Positions 23,099-44,060 of a stretch of DNA of 64,000 bases are shown here, in pieces. The notes under the pieces were generated by a model. It saw only the letters and a program-made list of their open reading frames with translations, had not been told where the DNA came from and searched no databases. The DNA comes from Streptantibioticus ferralitis. GTDB lineage: Bacteria > Actinomycetota > Actinomycetes > Streptomycetales > Streptomycetaceae. The position numbers were made by a program, and so were the translations under genes. Where the stretch lies: contig NZ_JARHTQ010000039.1 of assembly GCF_029223525.1 (NCBI RefSeq), positions 1 through 64,000 on the forward strand. Reading direction: 5' to 3'. The stretch's first letter is position 1, and every line of letters begins with the position of its first letter.

Positions 23099-24006
23099 GC
23101 CGAGCGGGTAGAAGGGGCATCGGGCCCGACGGGTTGGTCATCGTGGACAAGCCCGCCGGGCTCACCTCGCATACGGTCGTCTCCCGTGTGCGCCGCTTCG
23201 CCGGAACCCGGCGGGTCGGTCACGCGGGCACCCTCGACCCGATGGCGACCGGTGTGCTGGTGATCGGCGTGGAGAAGGCGACCCGGCTGCTCGGGCACCT
23301 GGCGCTCACCACCAAGACGTACCAGGCGACCATCCGGCTCGGCCAGTCGACGGTGACCGACGACGCGGAGGGCGAGGTGGCGGCGACCGCGTCGGCGGCG
23401 CACATCGCCCGCGACGCGTTGGACGACGGCATCGCCAAGCTCACCGGCGACATCCTCCAGGTGCCGTCCAAGGTCAGCGCGATCAAGGTCGACGGGAAGC
23501 GCTCGTACCGGCGGGTTCTCGACGGCGAGGACGTCGAACTGGCGGCGCGGCCGGTCACCGTCTCGTCCTTCACCGTCCATGACGTACGGGAGGCGGTGGC
23601 CGCCGACGGTACCCCGCTGCTCGACGTCGAGGTGACCGTCGAGTGCTCCTCGGGGACCTACATCCGGGCGCTCGCCCGGGACCTCGGCGCGGATCTGGGC
23701 ACCGGCGGGCATCTGACGGCGCTGCGCCGCACCCGCGTCGGCCCGTACGGCGTCGATCAGGCCCACACCCTGGACGAGTTGGAGGAGTCGTTCGCCGTGC
23801 TGCCGATCGGGCAGGCCGCGGCGGAGGCGTTCCCGCGCTGGGACGTCAGCGCCGAGCAGGCCCGTCAACTGATCAACGGCGTACGGCAGAAGGCCCCCGG
23901 GCTCGGCGCCGGACCCATCGCGGTCTTCGGCCCCGAGGACCGGCTCATCGCCCTGGTCGAGGAGCGGCGCGGCGAGACCAAGATCCTCGCGGGGTTCGTC
24001 TCGTAA
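23095..24006 (+). CDS. truB: tRNA pseudouridine(55) synthase
   Basis: A 303-residue TruB that makes pseudouridine 55 in the T-loop of tRNAs. The catalytic Asp48 lies in [14 protein letters not shown]. The [15 protein letters not shown] segment and the C-terminal PUA-like region ([13 protein letters not shown]) are present. The GTG start overlaps rbfA by four bases. It is the last gene of the rimP operon; directly after its stop begins an array of 16-bp repeats. Confidence 0.95.
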
Positions 24007-24148
24007 CTCCCGCGCGGACCAACTCCCGCGCGGACCAACTCCCGCGCGGCCCAACTCCCGTAGGGGCCAACTCCCATACGGATCAGCTCCGTACGGGCCG
24101 ACCCGCCCACGGATCGACTACCCGTACGGCCCAACTCCCGTACGGACG
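24005..24148. repeat. Nine degenerate 16-bp tandem repeats downstream of truB
   Basis: The units begin as AACTCCCGCGCGGACC (two exact copies at 24005-24020 and 24021-24036, the third with one change) and decay to AACTCCCGTACGGACG by the ninth (24133-24148). The period of 16 is not a multiple of three, so this is not a peptide repeat. It occupies much of the 406-base gap between truB and the next gene; the rest of the gap, apart from the 15-bp repeat, shows no gene. Confidence 0.85.
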
Positions 24149-24338
24149 GCGCACCGTGGAGTGCGGGCCGTGGTAGCCGCCCCGGCCCGCACTCAACGAT
24201 TCCCCTCCGATCCTCTCTTATCCCCTCCGAGCTGCGGATTCACCCCAACGGGCAGGCGCTCGGAGTGAATCCCGTGGTGTGCGGGGGCGCTTTCGCCGCG
24301 CGCCCTGTCGTGGCGATCACCACACGCCTACCGTCGAC

Positions 24339-24398
24339 GAGGGAGCGTTCGGCGAGGGGGCTTTCGGCGAGGGAGCGTTCGGCGAGGGAGCGTTCGGC
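24339..24398. repeat. Four 15-bp tandem repeats immediately before the protease-NTPase gene
   Basis: GAGGGAGCGTTCGGC occurs at 24339, 24369 and 24384, and a variant, GAGGGGGCTTTCGGC, at 24354. The block ends two bases before the GGAGG (24401-24405) that serves the next gene. It could be a 5'-leader element. One frame would encode EGAFG pentapeptides, but it is not joined to the downstream gene. Confidence 0.8.
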
Positions 24399-24412
24399 GG
24401 GGAGGTATGTGC

Positions 24413-27400
24413 ATGGCGCTTGGGGTCCCCCCTGCCATGGGTCAGGGGAAGGCCGATCCGGACGAGTCACTGGTGAGACTCTGCGATCTGGCCGGCCGGC
24501 CACGCGGCACCGGGTTTCTCATCGACACCGGCGGCACACTGCTGACCAGCCATGAAGCCGTCGACGGGCTGCGCCGCCTGGTGCTGCACGCACCGGGCGA
24601 GCAGACCTGCCTGGTCGAGGCCGAGGCCATCACCGCCCTGCCGGAGCAGGGCCTGGCCCTGGTCGCCACCGAAGGACTCGTCGTACCACCGCTGCCGGTC
24701 GCCGAGACCGGCCCCGCCGACCCCGACGGCTGGGTGCGGCTGCACGCCGAGAACTGGGTGCACGCGGCCGTCGTCGGCACCGTGCCCGCCACCTATACCG
24801 CCACCGACCGCTTCCACCTGCTGGGGCAGGTCTACGAGCTCGTCACGGGCACCCCCGACGCGCTGCGCAACGGGCCGCTGGTCTCCGGCAGCCCGTTGGT
24901 CGACACCAGGACCGGCGCGGTGCTCGGCGTGGTGGCCACCGCCGTACACGCCGCGCACGCCGCGCCCGGGTTCGCCGTCCCGCTGCGCGCCGAAGGTCCG
25001 CTGGCCGAACCGCTGGCCCGCAACGCCGCCACCGTGCCCGCCTACGGAGCCCATCTGAACCTCGCCGGTGCGCTGCAGCTCACCGCGACCTCGGTCGGTT
25101 CCGCGGGCGCGGGACAGCCCCGGGACCGGCGCGAACCGGAGCACAGACCGGCTGTCGAGAGCGAACTGCGGACCTTCCTCGACGCCACCGACGAGCGGGG
25201 GCCGCTGGTGCTCGGCCTGGTCGGCGACCCGGGCTGCGGACGCACCACCGAACTGGGCGCGCTCGCCGCCCGCCGTGCCCGGGGCGCGCGCCCGGCCCCG
25301 ACCGTATGGCTGCGCGGGGCCGAACTGCGGCCTGGTGACGGCGGGTTGAAGGAGGCGGTGGAACGGGCGCTGCGGGCGGCCGGGCGGATCATCGACGCCT
25401 CGGGCGGGGTGGGGGAGGCCGGACAGGCGGAGGGCGTGACGCCGGACGCCGTGGCGCATCTGGCGCGGGCCGCCGGTCGCCCGCTACTGGTACTCCTGGA
25501 CGCGCCCGAGGAGATGCCGTCGGTTCTGGCGCGGGCGCTGCCCGACTGGACGGCGGGCACCACGAGTTGGCTGCGGGCCGCCGGAGTACGGCTGGTGGTG
25601 GCGTGCCGCCCGGAGTACTGGGAGCGGGCCGGTGCGCTGTTCCCCGCCGAACTGCTGTACCGCCCCGGGTCATCGGCCACCCCGCCGGGCGGCCCGGCGC
25701 GGGCGCTGCCCGCCTGCGTACGGCTTGGCGACCTCACACCAGGCCAGGCCGAGCAGGCGCGCGAGCGGTACGGGATCCCGGAGGAGGCGATCGACCCGGC
25801 CGACGCCGCGCACCCCCTGGCGTTGCGCCTGCTGGCCGAGGTCCGCGCGGCCAACCCCGGGGTGGCGGGGGCACCGGACCGGTCCGCCATCTTCGCCGCC
25901 TACCTCGATCTGGTGTGCCTGCGGATCGCCGTACGGCTCGCGGTGGCCGGTTCCGAGCAGGTCGTCGGTACGGCCTTGCGCCGGCTGGCCGCCCGGGTGG
26001 CCGGACAGGTGCATGAGGCGGCGCGGCAGTGCTTGGGCCCGGGACAGGGCGAGTTGGACCGCGAGACCTTCGAGGAGATCTTCCCGTGGCGCAGCGGCTG
26101 GGCGTCCGCGGTGCTCACCGAAGGACTCCTGGTGCCCGCGGGGGCCGGGTACCGGTTCGCGCACGAGGAGTTCGCGGACTGGCTGCAGGCCGGGCACCTC
26201 GACCTGGACGCCGCGCTGCACGCCCTGGTCTACCGGTGGCACACGGCGCCGCGCGGCCGGCGAGAGGCCCCGGTACGGCTGCCGTCGCGCCCGTTGACGA
26301 CGGTGCGGACCGGCACGCACGACGACCGCGTCCCACCGCCACCGCCCGCGCCCTCCGTCGCCCCCACGCAGCCGCCGCACGCCCTGCCGGTGCCGCGCCA
26401 CCGCATCGGCCCGGTCGTACAGGCACTGTTGCTGGCCGGGCGGCGGGACGGAATGGACGAACTCGCCCACCGGCTGGACGACTTGGTCGGCGCCCTGGAC
26501 GCGGGTGCGGTGGAGCCGACCCGGCTGGTCCCCGAGGACGGGCCGCCCGCTTACCAGGACGGCCACGTGGACGACGTCGACGGCGAGGACGACGAGCGGC
26601 GCGCGGACGCCGCGTGGTGGGCGGCGCATCTGCTCGGCGAGGTGCTGCTGCGCGTCCCCGACGGCGAGCCGTTCCGCGATGTGCTGCGACGGCTGGCGGA
26701 ACGGATCACCGTACGTTCACTGCAACGCGGTGGGTTCACCTCGCCGACCGGGCCCCGGCTTCCGGCCGGACTGGCCGAATTCGGCCCCTGGTTCTGGTTG
26801 CGACTGCCACTGGGCACCGAGGACAGGCTGGACCTGCTGCGGCTGCTGCTGCCGGCGGACGGGCCGCCCCCGGAGAAGGGCTGCGCGGCGGGGGAGGACC
26901 GGTTCCTGACCGCGGCCGGTGAACTGCTCTGCGCCGACACGGATGTCGCGCTGCCGCTCATTTGCGGCTGGTTCGAGGACGACCGGCCGCTGCCGGCCGC
27001 CCCCGGCCCGCAGCTCAACCCCACGGTGGCCTCCGCCGCACAGGCGCTGCTGCACACCCACCGGCACCGGGCGATCGACGGCCTCACCGAAGTGCTGGTC
27101 GCGGCCGCCCATCCGCGCGCCGACGAACTCCTCGCCGCGCTCGCCGAGGACGAACCCTCGGCGCTGTGCCGCGCCGTGGACCGCTGGGCGCACGACGACC
27201 GTCCGGAACGCCATGTCGCGGCCGCCGCCTACGGATTGCGCGCGGCCGCCCATGTCACGTCCGAGGCAGACCGCCAACTGCTGCGCTACGCGGCGCTCAC
27301 CCTGCTCGACCGCAGCGACGACTGCTCCCTGCACGGCGCGGCACTCGCCCTGCTGGTACGGGACCCGGTGACGCGCAACCGCCATCTGGACCGGGCGCTG

Positions 27401-27871
27401 GCCCGCTTCACGGCCGGGGATCCGTACATTCCGGCGGCCGTGCTGGGCGCCGCGCTGGCCACCCACCCCGAGCCGGTGCTGGCCGCCTTCCAGGCGCGGC
27501 TGCGCGAGCCGGGACCGCGCGCGGCCGAGGTCCTGGCGGAGCTCGCCCGGGTCACCACCCCGGCGCTGGCCCGCCGGGCGGCCACGCTCGTACGCGGCTA
27601 CGCGGAGCACTGCCCGGAAGGCGCCCGCGATGTGGCCGACTACCTCGATCTGCGCCTGGAACAGGGTCCCGGCGCCCGTGCGGTCCTCTTCCCGCTCGCG
27701 GTGGGGCTGCTGCGCGATCCTCGCGCGGAAGTACGCAGAGCGCTCGCCCCGGTACTGACGGCAACCGGATCGGAGGTTTCCCAACCGCTGCGCAGAGAAC
27801 TCCTGGAAGTCCTGCTGGAAGGCGAACGCGACGCGGCGGTCCTGGACGCCGTACGCCGCGGCGGTGGCTGA
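24413..27871 (+). CDS. Trypsin-like domain / P-loop NTPase (STAND-like) / helical repeat protein
   Basis: A 1152-residue multidomain protein of unknown function. Residues about 20-215 resemble a trypsin-like serine peptidase: RGTGFLID, His47 in TSHEAV, and Ser160 in SGSPLVD. The acidic triad position is replaced (PEQGLALVA has Gly80 where DLAL is usual). Residues about 240-560 form a P-loop NTPase: GDPGCGRTT (271-279) has Arg277 instead of the Walker A Lys, and the Walker B candidate LLVLLDAPEE ends at Asp363. A downstream ACRPEYW segment is typical of STAND/AAA proteins. The C-terminal half is Ala/Leu-rich and helical, possibly HEAT-like. The ATG at 24413 is best spaced from GGAGG; ATGs at 24407 and 24437 are alternatives. 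Such architectures occur in signalling and conflict systems, but no function is proven. Confidence 0.72.
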   Translation: MALGVPPAMGQGKADPDESLVRLCDLAGRPRGTGFLIDTGGTLLTSHEAVDGLRRLVLHAPGEQTCLVEAEAITALPEQGLALVATEGLVVPPLPVAETGPADPDGWVRLHAENWVHAAVVGTVPATYTATDRFHLLGQVYELVTGTPDALRNGPLVSGSPLVDTRTGAVLGVVATAVHAAHAAPGFAVPLRAEGPLAEPLARNAATVPAYGAHLNLAGALQLTATSVGSAGAGQPRDRREPEHRPAVESELRTFLDATDERGPLVLGLVGDPGCGRTTELGALAARRARGARPAPTVWLRGAELRPGDGGLKEAVERALRAAGRIIDASGGVGEAGQAEGVTPDAVAHLARAAGRPLLVLLDAPEEMPSVLARALPDWTAGTTSWLRAAGVRLVVACRPEYWERAGALFPAELLYRPGSSATPPGGPARALPACVRLGDLTPGQAEQARERYGIPEEAIDPADAAHPLALRLLAEVRAANPGVAGAPDRSAIFAAYLDLVCLRIAVRLAVAGSEQVVGTALRRLAARVAGQVHEAARQCLGPGQGELDRETFEEIFPWRSGWASAVLTEGLLVPAGAGYRFAHEEFADWLQAGHLDLDAALHALVYRWHTAPRGRREAPVRLPSRPLTTVRTGTHDDRVPPPPPAPSVAPTQPPHALPVPRHRIGPVVQALLLAGRRDGMDELAHRLDDLVGALDAGAVEPTRLVPEDGPPAYQDGHVDDVDGEDDERRADAAWWAAHLLGEVLLRVPDGEPFRDVLRRLAERITVRSLQRGGFTSPTGPRLPAGLAEFGPWFWLRLPLGTEDRLDLLRLLLPADGPPPEKGCAAGEDRFLTAAGELLCADTDVALPLICGWFEDDRPLPAAPGPQLNPTVASAAQALLHTHRHRAIDGLTEVLVAAAHPRADELLAALAEDEPSALCRAVDRWAHDDRPERHVAAAAYGLRAAAHVTSEADRQLLRYAALTLLDRSDDCSLHGAALALLVRDPVTRNRHLDRALARFTAGDPYIPAAVLGAALATHPEPVLAAFQARLREPGPRAAEVLAELARVTTPALARRAATLVRGYAEHCPEGARDVADYLDLRLEQGPGARAVLFPLAVGLLRDPRAEVRRALAPVLTATGSEVSQPLRRELLEVLLEGERDAAVLDAVRRGGG

Positions 27872-29056: not shown

Positions 29057-31825
29057 TCACTGCTGCTGCGGAGGCGGCGGATAGCCGTACCCAGGCTGCG
29101 GCTGCTGCTGCGGCCAGCCGGGAGGCGCGGGCTCGCCGCCCGGTCCGGTCGGCTGGCCCGGTGCGGGCGGCGGCGGACCGGCGGGGCTCGGCGCGGACTG
29201 GGCCTGCGTCTGCGACGGAGGATGCTGCGGCCAGCCCTGCGGTGCGCCCGGAGGGGCGTACGGGGCCTGCTGCGGCTGCCCGTCGTACCCGGCACCGGCC
29301 GGCGGGTAGTAGTAGGGCTGCTGCTGACCCGGGATCGGCGGGGCCATCTGCGGAGGCTGCCCGCCGCCTTCCCCCTGCGTCCACAGACCCTGCGCCTGCT
29401 GGGCGCGGGCGAAGTCCTCCGCGACCATCGCCGCCAGGTTGAAGTACGCCTCGCGGGTCTTCGGTCGCATCATGTCGAGGTCCACCTCGGCGCCCGCCGC
29501 CAGGTGCTCGTCGAACGGGACGACGACCACGCCGCGGCACCGTGTCTCGAAGTGGGACACGATGTCCTCAACCTTGATCATCTTTCCGGTCTCGCGGACC
29601 CCGGAGATCACGGTGATGCTGCGCTGCACCAGGTCCGCGTAGCCGTGCGCGGAAAGCCAGTCGAGCGTGGTGCTCGCGCTGCTGGCGCCGTCGACGGACG
29701 GGGTGGAGATGATGATCAACTGCTCGGCGAGGTCGAGCACACCGCGCATCGCGCTGTAGAGCAGACCGGTGCCCGAATCGGTGAGGATGATCGGGTACTG
29801 CCTGCCGAGGACATCGATGGCCCGGCGGTAGTCCTCGTCGTTGAACGTGGTCGACACGGCCGGGTCCACGTCGTTGGCGATGATCTCCAGACCGGACGGC
29901 GCCTGCGAGGTGAACCGGCGGATGTCCATGTAGCTGTGCAGATGCGGAATGTGCTGCACCAGGTCGCGAATGGTCGCACCGGTCTCGCGGCGCACCCGGC
30001 GGCCGAGCGTTCCGGCGTCGGGGTTGGCGTCGATGGCGAGGATCTTGTCCTGGCGCTCCGAGGCGAGGGTGGAGCCGAGCGCGGTGGTGGTCGTGGTCTT
30101 GCCGACACCGCCCTTCAGACTGATCACCGCGATCCGGTAGCAGGACAGGACCGGCGTACGGATCAGTTCCAGCTTCCGCTGCCGCTCGGCCTCGGCCGCC
30201 TTGCCGCCGATCCGGAACGGGGACCGGCCCGGGATGTTGCCACCGGGCTTCTTGGCCTTGGGCTGGTTGCGCAGCAGGCGGTCGGAGGACAGCTCCACCG
30301 CGGCGGTGTAACCGAGCGGCGCGCCGCCGACGGTGCGCTGCCGCTGGTCCGGGGTGACCGCGGGCCAGCCGCCGGTACGCGGGTCGACGGGCGGCCCGGG
30401 CTGGACTGCCAGCTGCTCGGGGTGAGCGGGCGGCAGCGGCGCACCCTCGTGCGGATAGCCGTAACCGGGCTGCGGCTGCGGCGGTGTGCCCTGCTGGTTC
30501 GGCAGCGGAAAACCGTAAGAGGACTGCGGCGCCCCCGAGTTGGGGGCGTTCGGGGTCGGGGGCGGGGGGAAACCGGGCCCGGGCTGCTGGGGTCCTGGCT
30601 GCTGGGGTCCTGGCTGCTGGGGTCCTGGCTGCTGGGGTCCGGGCTGCTGGGGTCCGGGCGGGGGCAGCGGCGCACCCTGGCTCGCGGACGCGTCGTAGTA
30701 CTGCACGGGCGGCGGCAGCGGCGCCCCCGTCGCCGGGTGCGGCGGGCTCACCGCGTTCGGCCCGTTCGGCCCGTCCGGCGTGTTCGGGGCGGGCGGCTGC
30801 GGGAAGCCCTGCTGGGGACCGGGCGGCGGTGGCGTGACAGCGGGTCCGGGCTGCTGCGGGCCGGGCGGTGGGAGTACCACGGCCGGCCCGGGCGGCTGGG
30901 GTGCCTGGAACTGCGGCGGCAGCGGCGGCACGGCGTTCTGCGGCGGGGTCTGCGGCGGCGGCACCTGGGACCAGGGGGAGTTGGTCGCGGGCGGCTGCGG
31001 CGCGGGCGGTGCCCATGGCTGTGCGCCGACTGGTCCGGCCGTGTCGCCCGGTGATGCGATGGGCGCCGTGGGTACGGGAGTTGGGGCCGCTGTGGACTGC
31101 GGCGCCGGCGGCTGGGGTGCGGGGACGGCGTCACGCGGTTCGTCGGTGGCCGAAGCGGTGTCAGCGGTATCAGCGGTGTCAGTGGGCGCCGCGTCGCCGT
31201 CCGCAGGCTCGCCCTTCGGGGACGCGGAGATGGCGTCAGACTCCGGAAGTGCATCCTCCGGTTTGCTGTCCGAAGCTTCCGGATCGGCGTCCTGAGCGGC
31301 CTTCACGCCCTTTGTCGTGGAGAGGGCCGAGAAACGCATGGTGGACTCGCTGCGAATGGCACCGCGCAACGGCTCGTCCTTCGCGCTCGCCTCGGCGGGA
31401 GCGCCGCCCGTCCCCGTGGAGCTGTCCGCCGGTCCGCCGTGTGTGCCGGGCGCCGCCGTGGCATCGGTGCTCGGCGCCAGGCCCGTGAGGCCGGGCTCGG
31501 CGCCGCCACCGCCAACTGCCGTACCGCTGCTGGGCGCGGACCAGCCGGACCCGCCCGGGGTGCCGGTGCGCTGCTCGCTGCCGGGCGGTGGCACGGCGCC
31601 GGTGGCGGACGGCGACACGGTGTCGGGCGCGGGAGTGGCGGGCGGCCGCGGTGCCGACGGCGCCGCAGTCGACGGCGCCGGGGCCGTGGACGGCGCCGGG
31701 GAGCCGCTCTCCTCGCTGTTCGTCATGTACCAGGCGGGCGGCGTGTAGTCGATGGTGAACTCGCCTGTGTGGTCGGCGTCGGTCGACCGCCCGTCGCCGC
31801 GGTTCTCGTCCCGATCGCTGCTCAC
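29057..31825 (-). CDS. ESX-associated MinD/ParA-like ATPase with disordered arms (EspI-like)
   Basis: A 922-residue protein. Residues about 1-530 are low-complexity Pro/Ala/Thr/Gln/Gly sequence, starting with an aromatic motif YTPPAWYM near residue 28. The ATPase domain (about 555-830) has the deviant Walker A KGGVGKT at 571-577 and segments such as IDANPD and ILTDSGTG. The C-terminus is again Pro/Gln/Tyr-rich. Similar MinD-like proteins with Pro-rich N-termini (EspI type) occur in mycobacterial ESX loci, where they modulate secretion according to ATP level. The start is a GTG (complement at 31825) behind AGGAGG. It is the last gene of the minus-strand eccE unit, separated from it by 295 bases. 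Confidence 0.82.
30582..30656 (-). repeat. Five 15-bp tandem repeats encoding Pro-Gln-Gln-Pro-Gly units
   Basis: GGCTGCTGGGGTCC(T/G) repeats five times within the MinD-like gene. It encodes PGPQQ-type pentapeptides in the disordered N-terminal arm. Units are almost identical, so copy number probably varies between strains. Confidence 0.85.
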
Positions 31826-32044
31826 TGTGCCTCCTGGATTGCTGTCATGCTCGCGAACGGCATGTCGTACGCGGGGGTGTGCGGCACCTGTGGGGTGAAC
31901 GTGGCGCAGGCTCGCGCCATCGATGATTCCTCCCCGTACCGCGGCAGCCCATCCGTCCCTTGTCTGCGGTCCCCTCGGTCTCAGGGGGCCACGGAGGCTG
32001 ATTCGGGATACCTGCCCTCATGTGCTCCTGCCGCTCTGGAGGAC

Positions 32045-32075
32045 AGCCTAATCATCCGGTGCCCCTCCATGTCAG
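32045..32075 (-). promoter_or_regulatory. Candidate promoter for the MinD-like gene
   Basis: On the minus strand, TAGGCT (complement of 32045-32050) and CTGACA (complement of 32070-32075) are separated by 19 bases, within the 295-base gap before the MinD-like gene. The spacing is long and the call is tentative. Nothing else was recognised in this gap. Confidence 0.3.
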
Positions 32076-32120
32076 GCCCGCCCCCGCAGCCCGTGGTGCA
32101 CCGGCCACCCGCCCCCGGCG

Positions 32121-32900
32121 TCAGTCCACCCGGCGGGGCGAGCCCAGCAGCCCGGTCTCGGCATCCGTGGGCTGCGTCATCACGAACTGCCGGTGCGTAC
32201 GTGTGCACCACAGCGCGAAGTTGTCACCGAGCCCGGACAGCGCGCCGACATCCGCCGCGGGCAGCGCCATGACACGGCCGATCAGCTCGGCCTCGTCGGG
32301 CGAGACCCGCTGCACCCCGACGAGCGTGGCGCTCTCCAGGAACCGCGGCGCGGTCGGCCCCAGATACGGCAGCAGCGTCAGCACCGACTGCCACGGGGCC
32401 GCCGCCACCCGGCCGCGCGGCGGCCGGATCCCCGCGTCCCGTACCACCAGCACCGGACTGCCCACCGACGGTCCCTGCGGCGGCACCCGTCCCACGTCGT
32501 GGATCGTCATGCACTGCTGACCGCCGCCGGCCGCCTGCGCCAACGGCGCCCAGACATGGGGCCGTCCGGTCTCCACCGCGATCCGGGCCCCGGTGGCGGC
32601 CGCCCGCAGCGCGATCAACTGGGCCGTCCACAGGCCACCGACCAGCACGACCTCCAACGGCGTCGGCCGGTTGAGGCCGAGCACCGCGGGCCGGTTCTGC
32701 GCGTCGACGCCGATGACCACACCGTCGTCACCGACCGGCAGACCGACCGCCGCCAGCTGTCCGGAGGACAGTACGTGCCGCGGACGGCGCGGCCCGAGCA
32801 GGCCGAAGCCCAACCGCGGCCGCCCGCTGCGCCGTTCGCGCTCCCCGGCCGACGGCGCGCCAACGGCCGTGGACGAATCGGGCATCACCGATGAGGACAT
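32121..32900 (-). CDS. ESX-associated protein of unknown function, coupled to eccE
   Basis: A 259-residue protein not recognised as any named family. Its N-terminal 40 residues are Ser/Arg-rich. The middle alternates hydrophobic strands and helices, with a segment around VLVGGLWTAQLIALRAAATGARIAVET that resembles a nucleotide-binding fold without a Walker A lysine. The start ATG overlaps the eccE stop as TGATG, so the two proteins are probably made in a fixed ratio and may interact. There is no signal peptide. Speculatively it is a degenerate NTPase-like accessory of the secretion machine. Confidence 0.65.
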   Translation of the reverse strand: MSSSVMPDSSTAVGAPSAGERERRSGRPRLGFGLLGPRRPRHVLSSGQLAAVGLPVGDDGVVIGVDAQNRPAVLGLNRPTPLEVVLVGGLWTAQLIALRAAATGARIAVETGRPHVWAPLAQAAGGGQQCMTIHDVGRVPPQGPSVGSPVLVVRDAGIRPPRGRVAAAPWQSVLTLLPYLGPTAPRFLESATLVGVQRVSPDEAELIGRVMALPAADVGALSGLGDNFALWCTRTHRQFVMTQPTDAETGLLGSPRRVD

Positions 32901-34246
32901 CAGCGAGCACCTCCCAACGGCAAAGTGGCCAGCACACCCGGCAACTGCTCGCGGTCCAACCGCACCAGATCGATCTTCACACCACGCGCGGCGCGTTCCA
33001 ACTGCCGCCGGGTCGCGGTGAGTTCGGTGTCGCTTCGGCCGGTCACCCGTACATGTCCGGAAAGCGCGGGCGCGTCTCCCGTACCCCGGCTCGCGGTCAG
33101 ACTGAACGTGGACGCCAGCGCGGGCATCGAGGTGAGCAGCGCCACCAGGTTCGGCGCCGGTGTTCCGCCCGGGCCCAACTGCGGCCAGCGGCCTATCCAG
33201 TACGTGGTGTGCCAGCGGTCGTCGCAGCGCCAGGCCCGAGCCGTCTCCGCCGTGCGGCGCGGCGGCGAGTCCGACCGGCCCGCCTGCGCGTTGGCCAGCG
33301 GATTGACACAACTCGACGTGGCGATCGCGGCGATCAGCCCGGCCTCGTCCAACAGCGTGGCCTCGAAGCCCGCACCGGCCAGCCTGCTCGCCAACTGGTC
33401 GGCGGCGCGCAGCAGGGCGCGCTGCGCCCCGGCTATCCCGCCACCGCGCGCCCGTACCGCTTCGGGGCACAGCTCCGGGTCGAGCTTGAGCGCGACCCAG
33501 GTCAGCCGGACCGCCGGAGCCCCGGACTGCGCCTGCAACGGCGCGTAGCTGCGCGCGGCGACCGCCTGCTCCGGCAGATGCGGCGCCGGGGCGGGCTGGG
33601 TGTGCTGCACGACCTGGACCGACTCCAGCCGTATGCCGTCCACGTCAAGCGCCCCGTACAGCAGGTCCAGCGGCAGCGGACGGGCGGTGCGCAGCGGACG
33701 CAGCGGTGCGTCGGCGGCCTGTACCTGCAGTACGGCGGTGAGGAACGTGCCGTCGCCGACCATGCCCACCGCACGCCGCCCCCGGGCGGTGTAGGTGTAG
33801 GTCCGCAGGCTCGGATCGCATTCGAGGGCGGGTGTGAACCCCGGGTCGGTGCCACTCGGCACCGGCTCACCGGCCCGTCGCCTGCGGGCCCGCAGCGCCA
33901 TGGCGGCGGCCAGCCACTCCGGGGCGGGCCGCCGGTGTCTGCGCACCACCGCGAGCATCACCAGGGCCGCGGCGACCACACCCGCGGGCACCAGCAGCAG
34001 CGGATCGGTGACCCAGGCCGCCAGCAGCACCGCGGCCGCCACCTCGATCAGTACCAACTGCTGCACCCCGATCGGGCCGATGCGGCCCGACTTCGGATGC
34101 GGACGCAGCACCGCACCGGACTGCGGCCCCCCACCGGACGGCCGCTCTCCGCCGGGGCGCGGCGTGCCGGCCGCGTGTGCCGCACCGCCCGACCGCGCAC
34201 CGGAGGGCGCCTGCCCTCTCGTACGCGTCGTGGTCGCGCTGGCCAT
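32900..34246 (-). CDS. eccE: Type VII secretion protein EccE
   Basis: A 448-residue ESX core component. After a basic, disordered N-terminus, two adjacent membrane helices occur at about residues 60-105 (LVLIEVAAAVLLAAWV and LLLVPAGVVAAALVMLAVV). The large C-terminal domain follows, with the family-typical HTTYWIGRWP segment. In mycobacteria EccE sits at the periphery of the EccBCDE membrane complex. Its stop codon overlaps the start of the next minus-strand gene. It is transcribed divergently from eccB, and the 275 bases between them should hold both promoters. Confidence 0.85.
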   Translation of the reverse strand: MASATTTRTRGQAPSGARSGGAAHAAGTPRPGGERPSGGGPQSGAVLRPHPKSGRIGPIGVQQLVLIEVAAAVLLAAWVTDPLLLVPAGVVAAALVMLAVVRRHRRPAPEWLAAAMALRARRRRAGEPVPSGTDPGFTPALECDPSLRTYTYTARGRRAVGMVGDGTFLTAVLQVQAADAPLRPLRTARPLPLDLLYGALDVDGIRLESVQVVQHTQPAPAPHLPEQAVAARSYAPLQAQSGAPAVRLTWVALKLDPELCPEAVRARGGGIAGAQRALLRAADQLASRLAGAGFEATLLDEAGLIAAIATSSCVNPLANAQAGRSDSPPRRTAETARAWRCDDRWHTTYWIGRWPQLGPGGTPAPNLVALLTSMPALASTFSLTASRGTGDAPALSGHVRVTGRSDTELTATRRQLERAARGVKIDLVRLDREQLPGVLATLPLGGAR

Positions 34247-34521
34247 CCCCGTCGCCCCCTTGTCCCACTCTTGTGGTGAATGCCCGGCTCACGTCCGGTG
34301 GTTGACGTACAGTCCGCCCCACCCGCACGACCGGTACCGATCGTCACCCGGCATAGTAGAGGGCCAGTCCGACGAGCGCGGGCGCCCGCCCCTGCCTGTG
34401 GATAACCGGGGTGCACAGCCGACGAGGACCGTCGACCGCACCGCGACCGCGGCGGGAAGAGTGCGGAAGGCCGCGTACACCGATCAGATCGCAGCGATCA
34501 CCGGGGGAGAAGTAAGAGCCG
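34247..34521. promoter_or_regulatory. Divergent eccE/eccB intergenic control region
   Basis: This 275-base gap separates divergently transcribed eccE and eccB. On the plus strand TTGACG (34312-34317) is followed after 17 bases by TACCGA (34335-34340), a possible promoter for eccB-mycP. A CATAGTAGAGGG stretch around 34362 is an alternative -10 area. The eccB ATG is preceded by GGGGGAGAAG. Confidence 0.4.
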
Positions 34522-36105
34522 ATGGCTTCACGGCGGGACGAGCTCAACGCCTACACCTTTGCCAGGAAGCGGACCTTGGCGGCGTTCCTCCAGCCGTCAC
34601 CCGCGGGTTCCGAGGAGGGCGCACCGCGGCCGCTGCGCGCCCTCGCGCCGAGCCTGGTCGTCGCGGCCCTGCTGCTCGCGGGATTCGGCGCCTGGGGCCT
34701 GATCAAGCCCGGCGCACCGCAGGGCTGGGACGACCCTGGCGCCAAGGTCCTCGTCGGCAGCGATTCCACCACCCGCTACGTGGTGCTGAAGACCGACGGC
34801 AAGGCGGAACTCCACCCGGTACTCAACCTGGCCTCCGCCAAACTCCTCCTCGATCCGCAGAAGTTCGGGGTGCTCAAGATCCAGGAGTCGGTGCTCGACA
34901 ACGGCAAGCTCCCGCACGGCCCCACCCTGGGCATCCCCTACGCCCCCGACCGCCTGCCCAGCAGCGCCGACGCCGGAACCGCCAAGCTGTGGGCGGTGTG
35001 CGAGCGGCCCGGCCAGGGCACGGGAGACGTCCAGAAGGCCGCCTTCGTGCTCGCCGGCCGGGACGCGTCCAAGGTCGACGGCGCCGGGCGGTTGAGCGGT
35101 GACCAGGGGCTGTTCGTCCAGGGCCCCGACGGCGTCCAGTACCTGGTCGACCCCGACGGCACCAAGTACCCCATCGGCAACGCCAACTGGAAGAGCGCGG
35201 GCAGGACCGGGCAGGACGCCCAGAAGCTGCTGGTGCGGATCCTGTTCGGCGGTGACAAGACACCGCAGTTGGTCACCGATGACTGGCTGGCCACCTTCAA
35301 CCCGGGCAGGCCGGTGGAGTTTCCGCAGGCGGACGGCTTGGGCGGAGCAGCCAATGTGCCCGGCCTCAACCCGCAGCTGAACAAGGTCGGCATGGTGCTG
35401 ATCGCCCCCAGCGGTACCGGCTCCCAGAAGTACGTCGTGCTGGCCAACAAGGTGGCCCGGGTCTCCGACCTGGTCGCCAAGCTGCTGCTCAACATGCCGG
35501 GCGTCACATCGATGTACCCGGGCTCGGACCACGTACCGGCGCCGCAGCAGGTCGCCGCCCAGGACTTCACCCCCGACGACACGCCCTTCTACGCCGACAG
35601 GGGATGGCCGCAGCAGCCGCCGCAGCAGGTGAACGACGGAAGCTCCGCCGCGTCGTGCAGCGTCTACCGCGGCTCGGTGAACGGCAACAACCAGCCCCAG
35701 GTGAGCGTGTGGACGGGCCGGCACTTCCCGGCGACCGTCGTCGACGGCGGCACCAGCGCCTATGTGACCCCGGGCTCCGGCCTGCTCTACCGGCAGACCG
35801 TCGGCGGCTCGACGGACACCGGCAGCGTCTTCCTGGTCACCGACACCGGCCTGCGCTATGCCGTGCAGTCGAACAATGACAGCAACTCCCACAAGTCGAA
35901 CATCGGCGCCGATCCCTCCGCCTCCGCCGACCCCCAGAGCTCAGGACAGAGCTCCGACCAGAGCCAGCAGCAGGCCGCCCAGGCTCAGGTGCGGCTCGGG
36001 TACGGGCAGGTGCAGCCGGTTCCGGTTCCGCAGGCGTGGTCGGCCTTCCTGCCCGCCGGGCCGACGCTGGACACCAACGACGCAGCCCAGCCGCAGGGTT
36101 CGTGA
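34522..36105 (+). CDS. eccB: Type VII secretion protein EccB
   Basis: A 527-residue ESX core subunit. The start matches the family pattern (MASRRDELNAYTFARKR). One membrane helix (about 44-62) is followed by a large extracytoplasmic domain with internal repeats and a Gln/Ser/Asp-rich C-terminus. Two cysteines (in WAVCERP and SSAASCSVYRG) probably form a disulfide. EccB links the membrane complex to the mycosin protease in the cell envelope. Its stop codon overlaps the mycosin start as TGATG, which fits the known EccB-MycP partnership. Confidence 0.93.
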   Translation: MASRRDELNAYTFARKRTLAAFLQPSPAGSEEGAPRPLRALAPSLVVAALLLAGFGAWGLIKPGAPQGWDDPGAKVLVGSDSTTRYVVLKTDGKAELHPVLNLASAKLLLDPQKFGVLKIQESVLDNGKLPHGPTLGIPYAPDRLPSSADAGTAKLWAVCERPGQGTGDVQKAAFVLAGRDASKVDGAGRLSGDQGLFVQGPDGVQYLVDPDGTKYPIGNANWKSAGRTGQDAQKLLVRILFGGDKTPQLVTDDWLATFNPGRPVEFPQADGLGGAANVPGLNPQLNKVGMVLIAPSGTGSQKYVVLANKVARVSDLVAKLLLNMPGVTSMYPGSDHVPAPQQVAAQDFTPDDTPFYADRGWPQQPPQQVNDGSSAASCSVYRGSVNGNNQPQVSVWTGRHFPATVVDGGTSAYVTPGSGLLYRQTVGGSTDTGSVFLVTDTGLRYAVQSNNDSNSHKSNIGADPSASADPQSSGQSSDQSQQQAAQAQVRLGYGQVQPVPVPQAWSAFLPAGPTLDTNDAAQPQGS

Positions 36106-37331
36106 TGCACGCGCCTCAAACCTCCCGTCTCGCGCGGTCCGTGGCCGCGTCCACCGCGGCCTGCACACTGGCCCTCACCCCCTGCCTGGTACCGGTGGAG
36201 CACCCGGTACGGGCACACCTGGCCCTCGACGACAACGGCGAATGCACCTTCCCGGCGCAGCCGATAGCGAGCGTCCCCTGGTCGCTCCAGCGGGTGATGC
36301 TCGACCAGCTGTGGCAGAACAGCCGGGGCAAGGGCGTCGGCGTCGCCGTCATCGACACCGGTGTCGACGCCCGTAACCCGCAGCTCAAGGACGCCGTCGA
36401 CAAGCACGACGGCTTCGACCTGATCGACAACAAGGGCGACGGCACCAACGACACCGTGGGCCATGGCACCAAGGTGGCGGGCATCATCGCGGCCCGCCCG
36501 GCCGCGGGTACCGGATTCGTCGGTCTGGCGCCGCAGGCCACCATCCTCCCGGTGCGCCAGAACGACGACCAGGGGAAAGGCACCGCCGCCACGCTCGCCG
36601 AGGCCATCCGCAAGTCGGTGGCCGCGGGCGCCAAGGTCATCAACATCTCGCAGGACACCACGGGTGTCCTGGGCCCCGACTCGCAGTTGGCGCAGGCCGT
36701 CCAGTACGCCCTGGACCAGGACGTCGTCGTGGTCGCGGCCGCGGGCAACAACGGCTCGGGCGGTCAGCAGCACTCCACGTACCCGGCCGCGTTCAAGGGC
36801 GTCCTGGCCGTCGGTGCCTCCGACCGCAACAACGAACGCGCCGACTTCTCGCAGTCCGGCCCCTTCGTCGGGGTCGCGGCGCCCGGCGTCGGCATGGTCT
36901 CCACCGTGCCGATCGGCGGGCAGTGCGTCGACGAGGGCACGAGTTTCGCGGCGCCCTATGTCGCGGCCGTCGCCGCGCTCATCCGCGCCAAGCACCACGA
37001 CTGGCACGAACAGCAGGTCGTCGCCCAGATCGAGCAGACCGCGGAACGCGTGGACCCCGGGCACAACAACTTCATCGGGTGGGGAGTGGTCGACCCGGTG
37101 CGCGCCCTCACCGACGACGCCAAGCCGATTGACCAGCCGGCGCCGGACAAGGGCCTCAGCAAGAGCGGCGCCCGGATACAGCCCGCCGCGCTCACCCTGG
37201 GCGAGACCCCGCAGCAGCGCGCTGAGCGCACCGCGACCTACGCCCTGGGCGGCGCGGCCCTGTTGGTCGCGGTGATCGCGGGCGGCGCCGTGGTCGTAAG
37301 GGACGCCAGGCGCCGCCGTACGACCACATGA
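36105..37331 (+). CDS. mycP: Mycosin, type VII secretion-associated subtilisin-like protease (copy 1)
   Basis: A 408-residue S8 serine protease with a cleavable-type N-terminal signal sequence, the catalytic triad Asp84 (AVIDTGVDA), His120 (GHGTKVAG) and Ser280 (GTSFAAPYVA), and a C-terminal membrane helix followed by a basic tail (RRRR). Mycosins are required for ESX complex stability and process some substrates. It is translationally coupled to eccB. A second mycosin lies at 44061-45254; this one has the longer propeptide-like N-terminus and is the one expected to serve the core complex. Confidence 0.92.
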   Translation: MHAPQTSRLARSVAASTAACTLALTPCLVPVEHPVRAHLALDDNGECTFPAQPIASVPWSLQRVMLDQLWQNSRGKGVGVAVIDTGVDARNPQLKDAVDKHDGFDLIDNKGDGTNDTVGHGTKVAGIIAARPAAGTGFVGLAPQATILPVRQNDDQGKGTAATLAEAIRKSVAAGAKVINISQDTTGVLGPDSQLAQAVQYALDQDVVVVAAAGNNGSGGQQHSTYPAAFKGVLAVGASDRNNERADFSQSGPFVGVAAPGVGMVSTVPIGGQCVDEGTSFAAPYVAAVAALIRAKHHDWHEQQVVAQIEQTAERVDPGHNNFIGWGVVDPVRALTDDAKPIDQPAPDKGLSKSGARIQPAALTLGETPQQRAERTATYALGGAALLVAVIAGGAVVVRDARRRRTTT

Positions 37332-37358
37332 GGCGCCGCCTCAGCCGGTCACTGGTGC

Positions 37359-38495
37359 TCAGCTGGCGCCGGCCGGCCGTACGGTGCCCATGATCTTGTC
37401 GATCTCGGCCGAAGTCAGCGCGTTGGGCACGCCCTGGTCCGCGTAAATGATCCACAGCCCGATCGTGCCGTCCTTGAGGCGCATCGCGATGGAGCGCGCG
37501 GTGGCGGTCGCGGGGACGCAGGGACTCGGCTGGTAGATGCCGGTGACGGTAGCGGTCGCGGTGTAGCCGTCGATGCCGTTGTGCTTCCACGGTGTGGGCG
37601 TGCTGACCGACACCTTGGGCTTGTGGCCGTCGGCGCCACCGTAGGCGGCGAAGCCCCAGTTACCGGCCGCGATCTTGGCGTCGTCCTGGAGGGTGCCGCC
37701 CTTGGCGCCCTGGGAGCCGATGGTGGCCAGCTGGCCCTTGCCCGCGGCGATCGGACCGCTCTGGTTGCCCGCCGAGGCGCAGCCGCCCTCGCGGTAGTCC
37801 GAGGTGCCGGTCATGCCGACCATCGGCTGACCGTTCTTGTCGGTGTAAACGATCTCCAGGTCCGGCTTGGCGACCTTCCAGTTCTCGGACTGGGGCGGGA
37901 CGTCGTAGCTGAAGCCGTGCCGCTGCCAGGTCTGCGTCTGCCAGCCCGCGATCATCGGCTTCGCGTCCGATCCGTTCCCCGTGGTGTTGGGGCCGTCCTG
38001 GGTCGGCGTGGGCGCCGTCTGCGACGGCGCGGAGGCGCTTGACGACGCCTTCGCCTGTTGCGTCTTCTTCCCGCCGCCCAGCAGGGCGAACGCCCCGCCG
38101 CCGATCACCGCGAGCGCGACAACGGCGCCGACGACGGTGAGCAGCGTCTTGCGGTTGCGCGCGGGCTGCGGCTGCGGCTCCTGCGGTGCCGGGGGCTGCT
38201 GGCCGGGGTACGACCCGAAGTGGTTCTGCGGTGCGGTGGCGTGCGTTGGGAACCCGGCGGGCGGCGGGGGCGGGCCCTGGAGTGCCTGCGTGGGCTGGCT
38301 GTGCGGTGACTGGGCCTGCGGAGGCGGTGCGGGCTGCGGGGCTTGCGGAGGCGGCCCCGGGGGGCCTTGCGGCGGTATCTGCGGCATCTCGCCAGTGGGC
38401 GTCCAGGTGGGCGCCGGCCCGAATCCCTGCTGCGGCGGTTGCCGCGCGGGCTGCTGTGGTTGCTGCGGATCGTTGGGGTTCTGCGGCCAAGACAT
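37359..38495 (-). CDS. ESX-linked membrane-anchored protein with Pro/Gln-rich cytoplasmic arm
   Basis: A 378-residue protein. It has about 110 residues of Pro/Gln-rich sequence starting MSWPQNPNDP, a membrane helix (about 116-138, LLTVVGAVVALAVIGGGAF), a Ser/Thr/Ala linker, and an extracytoplasmic domain of about 200 residues with two cysteines (EGGCASAG and SPCVPAT) that may pair. The topology resembles other Streptomyces ESX-region proteins with Pro-rich inner arms. A decayed relative lies at 40382. It converges with the first mycosin gene. Function unknown. Confidence 0.75.
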   Translation of the reverse strand: MSWPQNPNDPQQPQQPARQPPQQGFGPAPTWTPTGEMPQIPPQGPPGPPPQAPQPAPPPQAQSPHSQPTQALQGPPPPPAGFPTHATAPQNHFGSYPGQQPPAPQEPQPQPARNRKTLLTVVGAVVALAVIGGGAFALLGGGKKTQQAKASSSASAPSQTAPTPTQDGPNTTGNGSDAKPMIAGWQTQTWQRHGFSYDVPPQSENWKVAKPDLEIVYTDKNGQPMVGMTGTSDYREGGCASAGNQSGPIAAGKGQLATIGSQGAKGGTLQDDAKIAAGNWGFAAYGGADGHKPKVSVSTPTPWKHNGIDGYTATATVTGIYQPSPCVPATATARSIAMRLKDGTIGLWIIYADQGVPNALTSAEIDKIMGTVRPAGAS

Positions 38496-38561
38496 GGCCG
38501 ATACCCTACGTGCCGACCGTCGCCGCCCGGTCGGTGAGCGGCGACAGAACGGAAACAGCAG

Positions 38562-40181
38562 CTACCCGGCCGCAGGCCAGGGGACTTGCGGAGAGCGGTA
38601 GTAGTCGATGCCCAGGGCGTCCCAGCGCGGCCCCTGCGCGGCCAACCGCACCTTGAACGCGTCCCAGTCGTGCAACGCGGCCGGTGACCAGCCGAGTTCA
38701 GCGATCGCCGGCAGCCGCGGGAAGGCCATATACCCGATGTGGTCGTTTGTCGAGATGGTTTCCGACCACAGTGGTGCCTCGACGCCCAGTACGGCCGATG
38801 CCGGCGCCCCGCGGAGGAACGTCGCCGGATCCCAGGAGTACGCGTCCTTGACCTCTGTATATCCGGCCCAGCTCAACCCCAGTTTGGTGGAGGGGTTGTA
38901 CTTCATGTCCAGGTAGGTGTGGTTGGCGGGCGACATCACCAGCCTCGTCCCCGCCTTGGCCGCGGCCACCACACTCTGCTCGGTACCGGCCGTGCCCCAG
39001 TACTGCGCGACCGCCCCCGCGATGGGATGGGCGTTGGCGATCTCGTGCCAAGCCAGCACGGTCTTCCGGTACTTGGCGACGATCGGCTGTACCCGGTCCA
39101 TGAAGGCCGTGTAGTCGGCGGCACTGGTGGAGTGTGCTTCATCGCCCCCGATGTGCAGATACGGACCAGGGGTGAGCGCCGCGAGCTCCCGCAGCACATC
39201 GTCGATGAAACGGTACGTCACGGCTTTCTGCACACACAGGGAGCTGAACCCGACGTTCGTTCCGGTGTACAGCGGGGGAGCGGCCCCGTTGCAGTTGAGC
39301 GGCGCGTACGAGGCGAGTGCGGCGTTGGTGTGCGCGGGCATGTCGATTTCCGGAACGACCGTCAGATAGCGGCTGGCCGCATAGTGCACGATCTGCTCGT
39401 ACTGCGCCTTCGTGTAGTACCCGCCAGGCCCGCCGCCGACCTCGGTCGAGCCACCGTAGGCGGCCAGCCGCGGCCACGACGAGATGGCGATCCGCCACCC
39501 CTGGTCGTCGGACAGGTGCAGATGCAGGTAGTTGATCTTGTAGAGCGCGAGTTGGTCGACGTACCGCTCGACCTGGGCGACGGTGAAGAAGTGCCGCGAG
39601 ACATCGAGCATCGCGCCACGGTAGGAGTACCGCGGCGTATCGGTGACCGTCCCGCCGGAGACGGTCCAGGGGCCGGGCTGCCGCGTCCGCTCCTCCACGG
39701 CGGCGGGCAGCAGCTGCCGCAGCGTCTGCACGCCGTGGAACAGGCCCGAGGGCTGCTTGGCGGTGATGGCCACGCCATGGTTGGTGACGTCCAGCCGGTA
39801 GCCCTCGTCGCCCAGCGCCGTGCCGTGGCCGCTGAGGGCCAGCACAATCCCACCCTCATCGCCCGCCGTCAGGGGCCGTACGGGTAGCGCATACCCCGTG
39901 GAGGGCCGCAGCAGCCCGGCCAGATACCGCCCGACCCGCACCGCCTCCGGCGACCCTTCCGGCACCCGGATGACGGTGTACCCGCCGATCGTGTACGACC
40001 CGCCACTCTCGTGCACGGCCGCTGGCGCGGGCACCACTTGCGACAAGGGTGGCGGGGCGGTGTCCCTGGGCGCCGCCGAGGCGGTCCCGGCGGTGACGCC
40101 CACCACTAAGAGCAACGCACCCAACAAACACGGCAACCGCCACACGACCACCCTGGAACCCCGAGCACTGCGTCGTCTCAC
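38562..40181 (-). CDS. Secreted beta-N-acetylhexosaminidase, GH20
   Basis: A 539-residue exported glycoside hydrolase. The start GTG (complement at 40181) follows GGAGGGA and gives a good signal peptide (RRRS, a long hydrophobic core, then TASAAP). After a GH20b-like N-terminal domain comes the catalytic barrel, with YRGAMLDVSRHFF, HLSDDQGWRI and the catalytic pair Asp347-Glu348 in HIGGDEAHS. It should release terminal N-acetylglucosamine or N-acetylgalactosamine from chitin or peptidoglycan-derived sugars outside the cell. It is embedded in the ESX locus with no other sugar genes around. A link to cell-wall passage of the secretion system is only a suggestion. Confidence 0.92.
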   Translation of the reverse strand: MRRRSARGSRVVVWRLPCLLGALLLVVGVTAGTASAAPRDTAPPPLSQVVPAPAAVHESGGSYTIGGYTVIRVPEGSPEAVRVGRYLAGLLRPSTGYALPVRPLTAGDEGGIVLALSGHGTALGDEGYRLDVTNHGVAITAKQPSGLFHGVQTLRQLLPAAVEERTRQPGPWTVSGGTVTDTPRYSYRGAMLDVSRHFFTVAQVERYVDQLALYKINYLHLHLSDDQGWRIAISSWPRLAAYGGSTEVGGGPGGYYTKAQYEQIVHYAASRYLTVVPEIDMPAHTNAALASYAPLNCNGAAPPLYTGTNVGFSSLCVQKAVTYRFIDDVLRELAALTPGPYLHIGGDEAHSTSAADYTAFMDRVQPIVAKYRKTVLAWHEIANAHPIAGAVAQYWGTAGTEQSVVAAAKAGTRLVMSPANHTYLDMKYNPSTKLGLSWAGYTEVKDAYSWDPATFLRGAPASAVLGVEAPLWSETISTNDHIGYMAFPRLPAIAELGWSPAALHDWDAFKVRLAAQGPRWDALGIDYYRSPQVPWPAAG

Positions 40182-40381
40182 GAACGATCCCTCCGCCGAG
40201 GGCCGAAGCCCAACCGACACCTGCGACCGAAATCCGATAAAGCGACCAAATGCGCTTCCTGGGTACCGCGTGGCTGATGCCCCGTCAAGAACTTCGCGAG
40301 TCGGGCAGACGTGTCTTGCTCAGGTGCACGTCAGGGAGCCCCGGGCTGGCCGTAGCGGTGAGGCAGTCAGTCGTAGGGTTT

Positions 40382-40990
40382 GTGATCACGTGGCCTAGCG
40401 AACAACAGTCCAAGGGGCCGGGTACTCCACCTGCACTGCTCCCGCAGGGACCGCCGTCGAACATTCCCCAGCCACCCGTATCAGGGCAACCGGCTGCTCT
40501 CGGACCGTCGCAGCCGCGCCATCCCGCGCAAGGGTCGGAAGTCCCGCAGTGTCAATGGCAGGGGTTCGGGGAAGCTCCTCCCCAGTGGGAGCCCGCCGCC
40601 ACGCCCGCCGTTCCAGAGCGGCGCTCGTGCAGGCACTTCACCGCCCTTGTCGCTGCCACCACTGTTCTTGCCCTGGCCGCCACAGGCGTGGCCGTCGCCT
40701 TCGCACTGCGCGATGGCCACGGCAAGCCGAAGGCCGCCCAGTCCTCTTCGGCCGCTCCCTCGATGACAGCGACCAGCCAACCCGGGGAAGGCGGTCCCCG
40801 TGGTACGACGAAAATTCAGCCGGTGGTACCGGGCTGGCAGGTCGTGCTGAACGGCGACCTGAACGTCGCCTGCGACGTACCGAAAGACTGGACGGTCTTG
40901 GGCGAAGGTCGGGACCTCGCTGTCCACAACGAAATGGGCTTTCCGGTCAGCTCGACGGAGCGGCCACCTACAAGCAGTACTGCTCCACAG
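40382..40990 (+). pseudogene. Decayed copy of the Pro-rich single-TM ESX membrane protein family
   Basis: From a GTG at 40382 the frame reads ITWPSEQQ, then a Pro/Gln-rich arm, a membrane helix (LVAATTVLALAATGVAVAFAL) and the start of an extracytoplasmic domain (VVPGWQVV, VACDVPKDWTVLGEG). This parallels the 37359-38495 protein. Near 40955 the homologous reading moves to another frame (LDGAATYKQYCS continues the family pattern), and the rest of the domain is missing. At about 40990 the sequence runs into a different Pro/Gln-rich arm. This is best explained as a frameshifted gene truncated by a deletion. Confidence 0.6.
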
Positions 40991-41961: not shown

Positions 41962-42079
41962 AGAAGCTCAAGCCAGGCGTGGCGTGACAGTGGGGCGGCA
42001 CCGATCACAGGACGAACCTGCCATTGGGCGACAAACCGGACCGTGTTGGTTGGCTCAAGTCCCCACCGGAGCTACTCAG

Positions 42080-42108
42080 TTGGGGCTGTCAGTGACACTC
42101 GATAGAGT
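42080..42108 (+). promoter_or_regulatory. Promoter for the ESX cargo operon (TTGGGG-N17-TAGAGT)
   Basis: TTGGGG (42080-42085), exactly 17 bases, then TAGAGT (42103-42108), about 40 bases before the GTG start of the small helical protein. The same arrangement occurs at 45276-45304 before the WXG100 pair. Confidence 0.6.
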
Positions 42109-42148
42109 GGTAGCCAGATTTAAAGGTGCTGTAAGGGGGAGGGGCATC

Positions 42149-42577: not shown

Positions 42578-42591
42578 GACTGGGGAGTCAC

Positions 42592-44019: not shown

Positions 44020-44060
44020 GCCGAACGGAACCCATAGGACCAGGTGGAGGCAGCGGCGCA

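Follow-up and report, generated by a model that had tools for sequence, protein, structure and literature searches.

Trypsin-like domains fused to signalling NTPases

In multicellular prokaryotes, trypsin-STAND proteins carry an N-terminal trypsin domain fused to a STAND nucleoside triphosphatase (NTPase) and belong to multi-gene systems; inactive trypsins in the effector position have been described as peptide-binding or dominant-negative modules (PMC7159879, in the passages cited). LypA is part of the CARD-NLR-like LypABC system of Caulobacter (NLR, NOD-like receptor). It combines an active trypsin-like domain, whose serine is required, with a CARD-like domain and an ATPase domain that has no normal Walker residues; the ATPase domain is needed, the authors think that ATP is still bound, and the protein works with LypB and LypC (PMC13236601, in the part describing LypA). 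Here, we describe a gene on the + strand of Streptantibioticus ferralitis contig NZ_JARHTQ010000039.1, within a stretch of 64,000 nucleotides that is called the window below. At positions 24413-27871 there is a real open reading frame (ORF) of 1152 amino acids, with truB about 400 nucleotides upstream and ribF downstream.

As alignments and predicted models show, the product would join an HtrA fold without its catalytic histidine, a NACHT-like NTPase with arginine in the P-loop and a series of HEAT-like repeats, all encoded by a single gene that is vertically inherited and keeps a fixed site. Model, position and purifying selection all characterize the gene in this way. The protein can be regarded as a new variant within the known trypsin-STAND-repeat architecture. 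It has in common with LypA, as far as the cited part of that report goes, a trypsin-like domain and an atypical ATPase, but it is encoded by a single gene, has HEAT-like repeats and its protease part appears to be dead. The confident model begins with the trypsin fold, not with a CARD-like domain, and the neighbours are truB and ribF, not lypB and lypC. Likewise, the trypsin-STAND systems are multi-gene in the account cited above, whereas the truB-ribF locus is fixed and single-gene, with no partner beside it.

No literature on a trypsin-NACHT protein between truB and ribF was found among the top-ranked matches in one open-access library. The S. coelicolor locus tag for the gene is presumably SCO5710, and a literature search under this tag was empty.

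Relatives were collected by scanning genome contigs with six peptide patterns, which include the Walker B stretch and do not cover residues 48, 80, 158 and 277. The scan found 139 relatives, of which 80 were kept, and further members came from other genome searches. Residue counts refer to 105 distinct sequences, the window copy included, that remained after 11 duplicates were removed; with duplicates there are 116 loci. A quick LG+G4 tree, which gave long-branch warnings, was built from 90 rows; the original set had 96, of which 6 that were partial or had broken frames were dropped. The nearest relatives on this tree are Streptomyces sp. RPT161 (L002) and Streptantibioticus rubrisoli (L001), so that relatedness puts the host within or close to Streptantibioticus.

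The AlphaFold2 model, made from a 40-sequence alignment, has a mean predicted local distance difference test score (pLDDT) of 86.2 and a predicted template modelling score (pTM) of 0.79. When the full model was ranked with Foldseek, NLRP9 came first (E 3.9e-7) and HtrA-type proteases next. An initial annotation, made from the letters of the sequence, had proposed a protein with a trypsin-like domain, a P-loop NTPase and a long helical C-terminal half at this position. The ORF between truB and ribF is confirmed, the residues and motifs that were listed (His47, Gly80, Ser160, Arg277, GDPGCGRTT and LLDAPEE) are all present as letters, and trypsin-like (HtrA) and NACHT folds are both found in the model with Z about 18.

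An HtrA fold without its catalytic histidine

The trypsin/HtrA-fold domain comprises residues 19-205 (24467..25027, + strand). Using VIA-align, residues 12-203 of the model match MamO and HtrA-type proteases with Z up to 17.9, and there is a profile match to HhoA (E 7e-10). Of 40 members, 37 have a Trypsin_2 match with an E value up to 0.5 (best 9.4e-12); in the window copy the match falls under the cut-off (24.6 versus 27.6 bits, E 4.6e-5). Taken alone, the Trypsin_2 match would mislead into a serine protease label.

Which residues occupy the catalytic columns? The initial annotation named His47 and Ser160, and here it was mistaken. When the family profile is aligned to HhoA, Deg1 and Rv3671c, there is no gap in the His motif and Glu48 falls opposite the catalytic His; a single-sequence alignment to HhoA concurs. 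T-S-H-E-A-V-D-G pairs with T-N-A-H-V-V-D-G of HhoA, and His47 is the neighbour of the catalytic His column, the His of the T-N-x-H-V motif being the catalytic one. The nucleophile column of N-S-G-G-P falls on Ser158.

The Glu48 codon (24554..24556, + strand) encodes Glu in 97 sequences, Gln in 6, Asp in 1 and Ala in 1. Because the catalytic His column thus holds Glu, Gln, Asp or Ala in 105 of 105 sequences, the protease domain looks dead across the family. The position of the Ser158 codon (24884..24886, + strand) is occupied by Ala (34), Ser (32), Thr (26), Val (6), Cys (2), Ile (2), Pro (2) and Arg (1), and position 160 by Gly (63), Ala (20), Ser (13), Thr (8) and Leu (1). Position 80 is indeed the acid column, as the annotation had it, but Gly80 is not conserved (Gly 51, Asp 42, Asn 8, Ala 4). 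At least 18 changes at position 158 and at least 19 at position 80 are needed on the tree. Gly159, Pro161 and Asp164 are invariant (105/105), and positions 158 and 80 vary; thus, the loop has been kept and the catalytic residues have not. Of the features of S1C (HtrA) proteases, the trypsin fold is present and the His-Asp-Ser triad is absent. The domain can still be called a pseudo-protease, on the strength of the Glu48 column and not of the residues first named, and it is unlikely to act as a catalytic effector; the annotation had referred to known architectures in which the N-terminal domain is the effector.

Might the domain nevertheless be an active but unusual protease that works through His47 and Ser158 or Ser160? 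His47 is found in 101 of 105 sequences, with Gln, Tyr, Arg and Leu once each, Ser158 in 32, and the window copy has both. However, the HhoA, Deg1 and Rv3671c alignments put the catalytic His at Glu48, residue 158 is other than Ser in 73 of 105 sequences, and 63 of them have Gly at position 160. This explanation was rejected on the Glu48 alignment and is improbable in the extreme.

The trypsin fold is shared with the HtrA/Deg proteases HhoA, MucD, Deg1 and Rv3671c (Z about 17-18), which differ in having the catalytic His and a PDZ domain. A secretion signal is not apparent by eye at the N terminus of the truB-ribF protein. A parallel for a trypsin fold reused beyond proteolysis is MamO, a repurposed HtrA-like protease (Z 17.9); it is a metal-binding magnetosome protein that is not known to be fused to an NTPase.

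A NACHT-like module with arginine in the P-loop

A conserved linker, N204...PAYG..LNLAG (residues 204-224; 25022..25084, + strand), in which Asn204 and Gly212 are found in 116 of 116 loci (duplicates included), is followed by a NACHT-like module at residues ~216-806 (25058..26830, + strand), identified by its model fold and containing a low-confidence, proline-rich insert at ~620-660. The predicted model has the NACHT fold (NBD-HD1-WHD-HD2). VIA-align matches residues 216-798 to NLRP3 (8sxn_C; Z 18.0, 390 aligned, root-mean-square deviation (rmsd) 4.3), and NOD2 (5irn) gives Z 17.7 over 383 aligned residues. The fold over ~380-420 residues (Z about 17-18) and the D-small-x-acid-E Walker B are common to NLRP3, NOD2 and the bacterial NACHT (bNACHT) proteins. 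In the winged-helix motif FAHEEFADW (residues 582-590; 26156..26182, + strand), position 584 is His in 84 of the 98 distinct rows that are occupied at this position, and this His resembles the winged-helix His of NLRs. Unlike NLRP3 and NOD2, the truB-ribF protein has an Arg P-loop, a pseudo-HtrA N terminus and HEAT-like repeats where NLRs have leucine-rich repeats.

Pfam NACHT gives weak matches in 6 of 40 members (best 0.0057) and none in the window copy. A divergent orthologue (G014:C14) reaches 26.2 bits alone and 27.4 bits with its in-frame neighbours, the cut-off being 26.7.

The P-loop GDPGCGRTT (residues 271-279; 25223..25249, + strand) has Arg277 at the position of the Walker A Lys. 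Arg277 is present in 105 of 105 distinct homologues, which rules out an error in one strain, and it shows no change on the tree. Orthologues at the truB-ribF site thus give a mixed answer on the two substitutions that the annotation had singled out, with Asp80 in 42 of 105 and Lys277 in none. The Walker B motif DAPEE (residues 363-367; 25499..25513, + strand) is of the NACHT type, which is marked by a small residue after the Mg-binding Asp and by a second acidic pair; residue 364 is Gly, Ala, Ser or Cys in 115 of 116 loci, mostly Gly or Ala. Gly274, Gly276, Asp363, Glu366 and Glu367 are found in 105 of 105 sequences, the invariance of Asp363-Glu367 being partly built in for the contig-scan set, whose peptide patterns include Walker B, and Arg399 in 98 of 105. 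Since Arg replaces the Walker A Lys throughout, the module is filed as NACHT-like and not as a canonical NACHT NTPase. The suggestion of an unusual NTPase sensor therefore holds and can be made specific: an NLRP3/NOD2-like module with the Walker B sequence D-[mostly G or A]-P-E-E.

Is the arginine a peculiarity of this family? As a control, 30 other NACHT/STAND loci were taken from 26 genomes of the same bacterial family, and all 30 have lysine; the control leans towards Lys because the loci were kept from a longer Pfam NACHT match list and the profile favours Lys. With Lys retained at these loci, drift in GC content alone is an unlikely cause of Arg277. Twelve weak matches from the class sample described below were also fetched; 11 of them were found again by profile (L177 was not) and seven were scanned against Pfam. 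In a Streptomyces NB-ARC-TPR family (L167, L168, L170, L174, L175 and L176; domains checked for three), all six members examined carry Arg in place of the Walker A Lys, as does L171, of the BTAD type; this family and L171 were found because they resemble a profile that itself has Arg. The residue is Val in L166 (LuxR type) and Lys in L169, L172 and L173 (ABC-like by eye). The Arg P-loop is not unique to the truB-ribF family.

What does the arginine do to the site? NOD2 K305R is reported to be unable to activate NF-kappaB (PMC3400628, in the passage on this mutant). The equivalence of this inactive mutant to Arg277, fixed in 105 of 105 sequences, would suit a structural scaffold in which the NTPase is fully dead and the NACHT fold serves only as a platform that links two surfaces for binding. 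However, one would expect drift at a dead site, and the invariant glycines, Asp363 and the Glu366-Glu367 pair are retained along with most copies of Arg399. In addition, the ATPase domain of LypA is needed and is thought to bind ATP without Walker A and B residues (PMC13236601, in the part cited). A fully dead scaffold is unlikely. Arg277 may indicate either nucleotide binding without turnover or no function, and because Walker B is intact the sequence leans towards binding.

Helical C-terminal half

The C-terminal half, residues 655-1152 (26375..27868, + strand), is helical and HEAT/ARM-like, with the best matches in the part beyond about residue 800. Modelled alone it has a pLDDT of 91.3, so that this model and that of the full chain bear out the long helical half of the initial annotation. 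The predicted structure is a HEAT/ARM superhelix of helical pairs. Its best match is the PP2A scaffold (Z 14.6, 292 aligned, rmsd 6.3), which is near the chance reach of helical models and supports the fold class only.

A PADLOC search of 40 members gave weak matches only: OloA in 8 (best 1e-5), MkoC in 1 and PDC-S68 in 1. The OloA matches fall mainly in the helical half; that of the window copy lies at residues 874-1062 (E 1.8) and perhaps reflects helical-repeat likeness.

A fixed locus with apparent repeated loss

Both flanks are on the contig in 77 of 80 loci, and truB is upstream and ribF downstream in all 77. The genome of the window contains a single copy of the gene. In a family sample, the gene is found in 24 of 41 genomes and truB in 41 of 41; 15 of the genomes without the gene were fetched, and in 15 of 15 truB adjoins ribF at a distance of 0.1-0.4 kb. 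In the g10 group, which is probably Streptomyces, 14 of 15 genomes have the gene among the matches listed and G125 does not. Outside Streptomycetaceae, no strong match was found in a class sample of 197 genomes or in an overlapping phylum sample of 246 genomes; the matches there are weak (about 19-31 bits), and those of the phylum sample include seven that were left unopened. L026 and L055 bear Streptosporangiaceae names, yet they are nested among Streptomyces in the tree and are probably misnamed.

Mean pairwise identity of the protein is 0.58, versus 0.76 for truB and 0.83 for ribF. Distances between copies of the gene correlate with those of truB (r 0.65) and ribF (r 0.74), and those of truB and ribF with each other at 0.76 (75 of the 80 loci were used). 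In comparisons with L001 and L002, the ratio of nonsynonymous to synonymous substitution rates (dN/dS) is 0.10-0.19, and with L003 it is 0.18-0.43; it is highest in the trypsin domain. The distribution suggests a gene that has been passed on vertically and lost repeatedly rather than one that is scattered.

This history bears on whether the gene encodes an anti-phage or self/non-self NLR, in which the pseudo-HtrA domain would be a bait for a phage protease or protease inhibitor, or would recruit a separate killer, with binding as the trigger for the NACHT module. Such a role is consistent with the tripartite NLR-like architecture, with the faster divergence of the protein relative to truB and ribF, and with what is reported in part of the literature, namely that bNACHT proteins take part in defence against phages (PMC12169576) and that lysis is under the control of LypABC, a trypsin-NLR system (PMC13236601). 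Against it stand the fixed site, the single copy, vertical inheritance without the scatter of defence islands, and the weakness of the PADLOC matches. A defence role is rather doubtful.

A switch that may bind without cutting

Taken together, the results support a switch or scaffold that is NLR-like and does not act by proteolysis. The favoured reading, to which we give an even chance, is a cytosolic bacterial NLR-like signalling protein with a pseudo-HtrA domain, an Arg-P-loop NACHT-like NTPase and HEAT-like repeats. The repeats would be the part that senses a ligand or holds a partner. In the NACHT module, Arg277 would mediate nucleotide binding and hydrolysis would be slow or absent; this module would control opening or oligomerisation. 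The pseudo-HtrA domain would bind a peptide or a partner protein rather than cut it. If that domain binds and does not cut, the output would need a second protein encoded elsewhere.

Several observations weigh against this proposal. His47, Asp80 and Ser158 occur together in 8 of 105 sequences, and the strong conservation of His47 is without explanation. Given NOD2 K305R, the P-loop with Arg277 could be a dead one. Beside the locus, no partner gene was seen. Frame breaks, from sequencing error or decay, split six copies (L029, L078, L090, L094, L097 and L104); because of these and the 17 of 41 family genomes without the gene, the gene is dispensable.

A bolder form of the signalling reading, possible but clearly less probable than the general one, is that of a fixed, nearly genus-wide Streptomyces NLR-like receptor, in which an Arg-loop NACHT switch would bind nucleotide with hardly any turnover and the dead HtrA domain would be a decoy or peptide sensor. 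If this is true, the Arg-bearing NB-ARC-TPR family and the BTAD-type protein would join it in a recognisable class of 'Arg-loop' STAND switches. The exchange of the Walker A Lys for Arg gives an inactive mutant in NOD2, yet here it is fixed in a lineage, under purifying selection and with the rest of the site intact. The family would offer a clean natural experiment on whether nucleotide binding, by itself, is enough to operate a NACHT switch. With it, Streptomyces would have a core NLR-like protein whose locus is fixed, in contrast to the scattered defence NLRs, and there would be an example of a protease-derived domain kept for binding.

Upstream region and neighbouring genes

The ATG at 24413 has a GGGGAGG ribosome site seven bases upstream, and many relatives have similar G-rich sites. 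Further upstream is a conserved element, GATCA-N7-CCTACCGTC (24315..24335, + strand), of which TACCGT is the likely -10. The form GATC[AT]-N5-10-CTA[ACG][CG]GT is present in 58 of 80 upstream regions, versus a mean of 0.03 in single-base shuffles, and the -10-like part with the following C in 65 of 80. The sole match of the strict form in the 8.8 Mb genome is at this gene. Because of this conserved element, matched once genome-wide, the gene is probably its own transcription unit. In some strains the element ends 5-7 nucleotides before the ATG, which suggests leaderless transcripts there. A second conserved box, GGGGGCGCTTTC (24283..24294, + strand), is found in 56 of 80 upstream regions; it has one match in the window, which by itself is at chance level.

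The initial annotation saw the gene as set in an otherwise housekeeping operon, and truB and ribF do flank it. A housekeeping factor that works with TruB, RbfA or RibF would explain why the gene lies between truB and ribF wherever both flanks are available. However, the gene has its own upstream element, truB and ribF adjoin cleanly in all fetched relatives that lack it, and no RNA- or flavin-related domain is among the 25 Pfam families listed. The flanks stand, the operon setting is apt only in part, and a housekeeping role is very unlikely.

Two tandem arrays are found in the interval between truB and the gene. The array at 24005-24147 has a period of 16 and 8.9 copies, and the array at 24334-24404, which separates the likely -10 from the ribosome site, has a period of 15 and 4.8 copies.

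In L048, L056 and L075, an extra segment of 4.5-5.1 kb with differing content lies beside the gene. In two Actinacidiphila species it is 4.5-4.7 kb long and lies between the gene and ribF (L048:10113-14811 and L056:10236-14761), and it carries an ORF that by eye is phosphoenolpyruvate (PEP)/pyruvate-binding-like. In L063, the open frame of the gene continues across ribF.

Downstream in the window, at about 29057-45254, there is a MinD-like ATPase with a proline-rich N terminus, followed by an apparent ESX/type VII secretion cluster. Judged by eye, this cluster includes EccE/EccB-like proteins and two mycosin-like subtilases.

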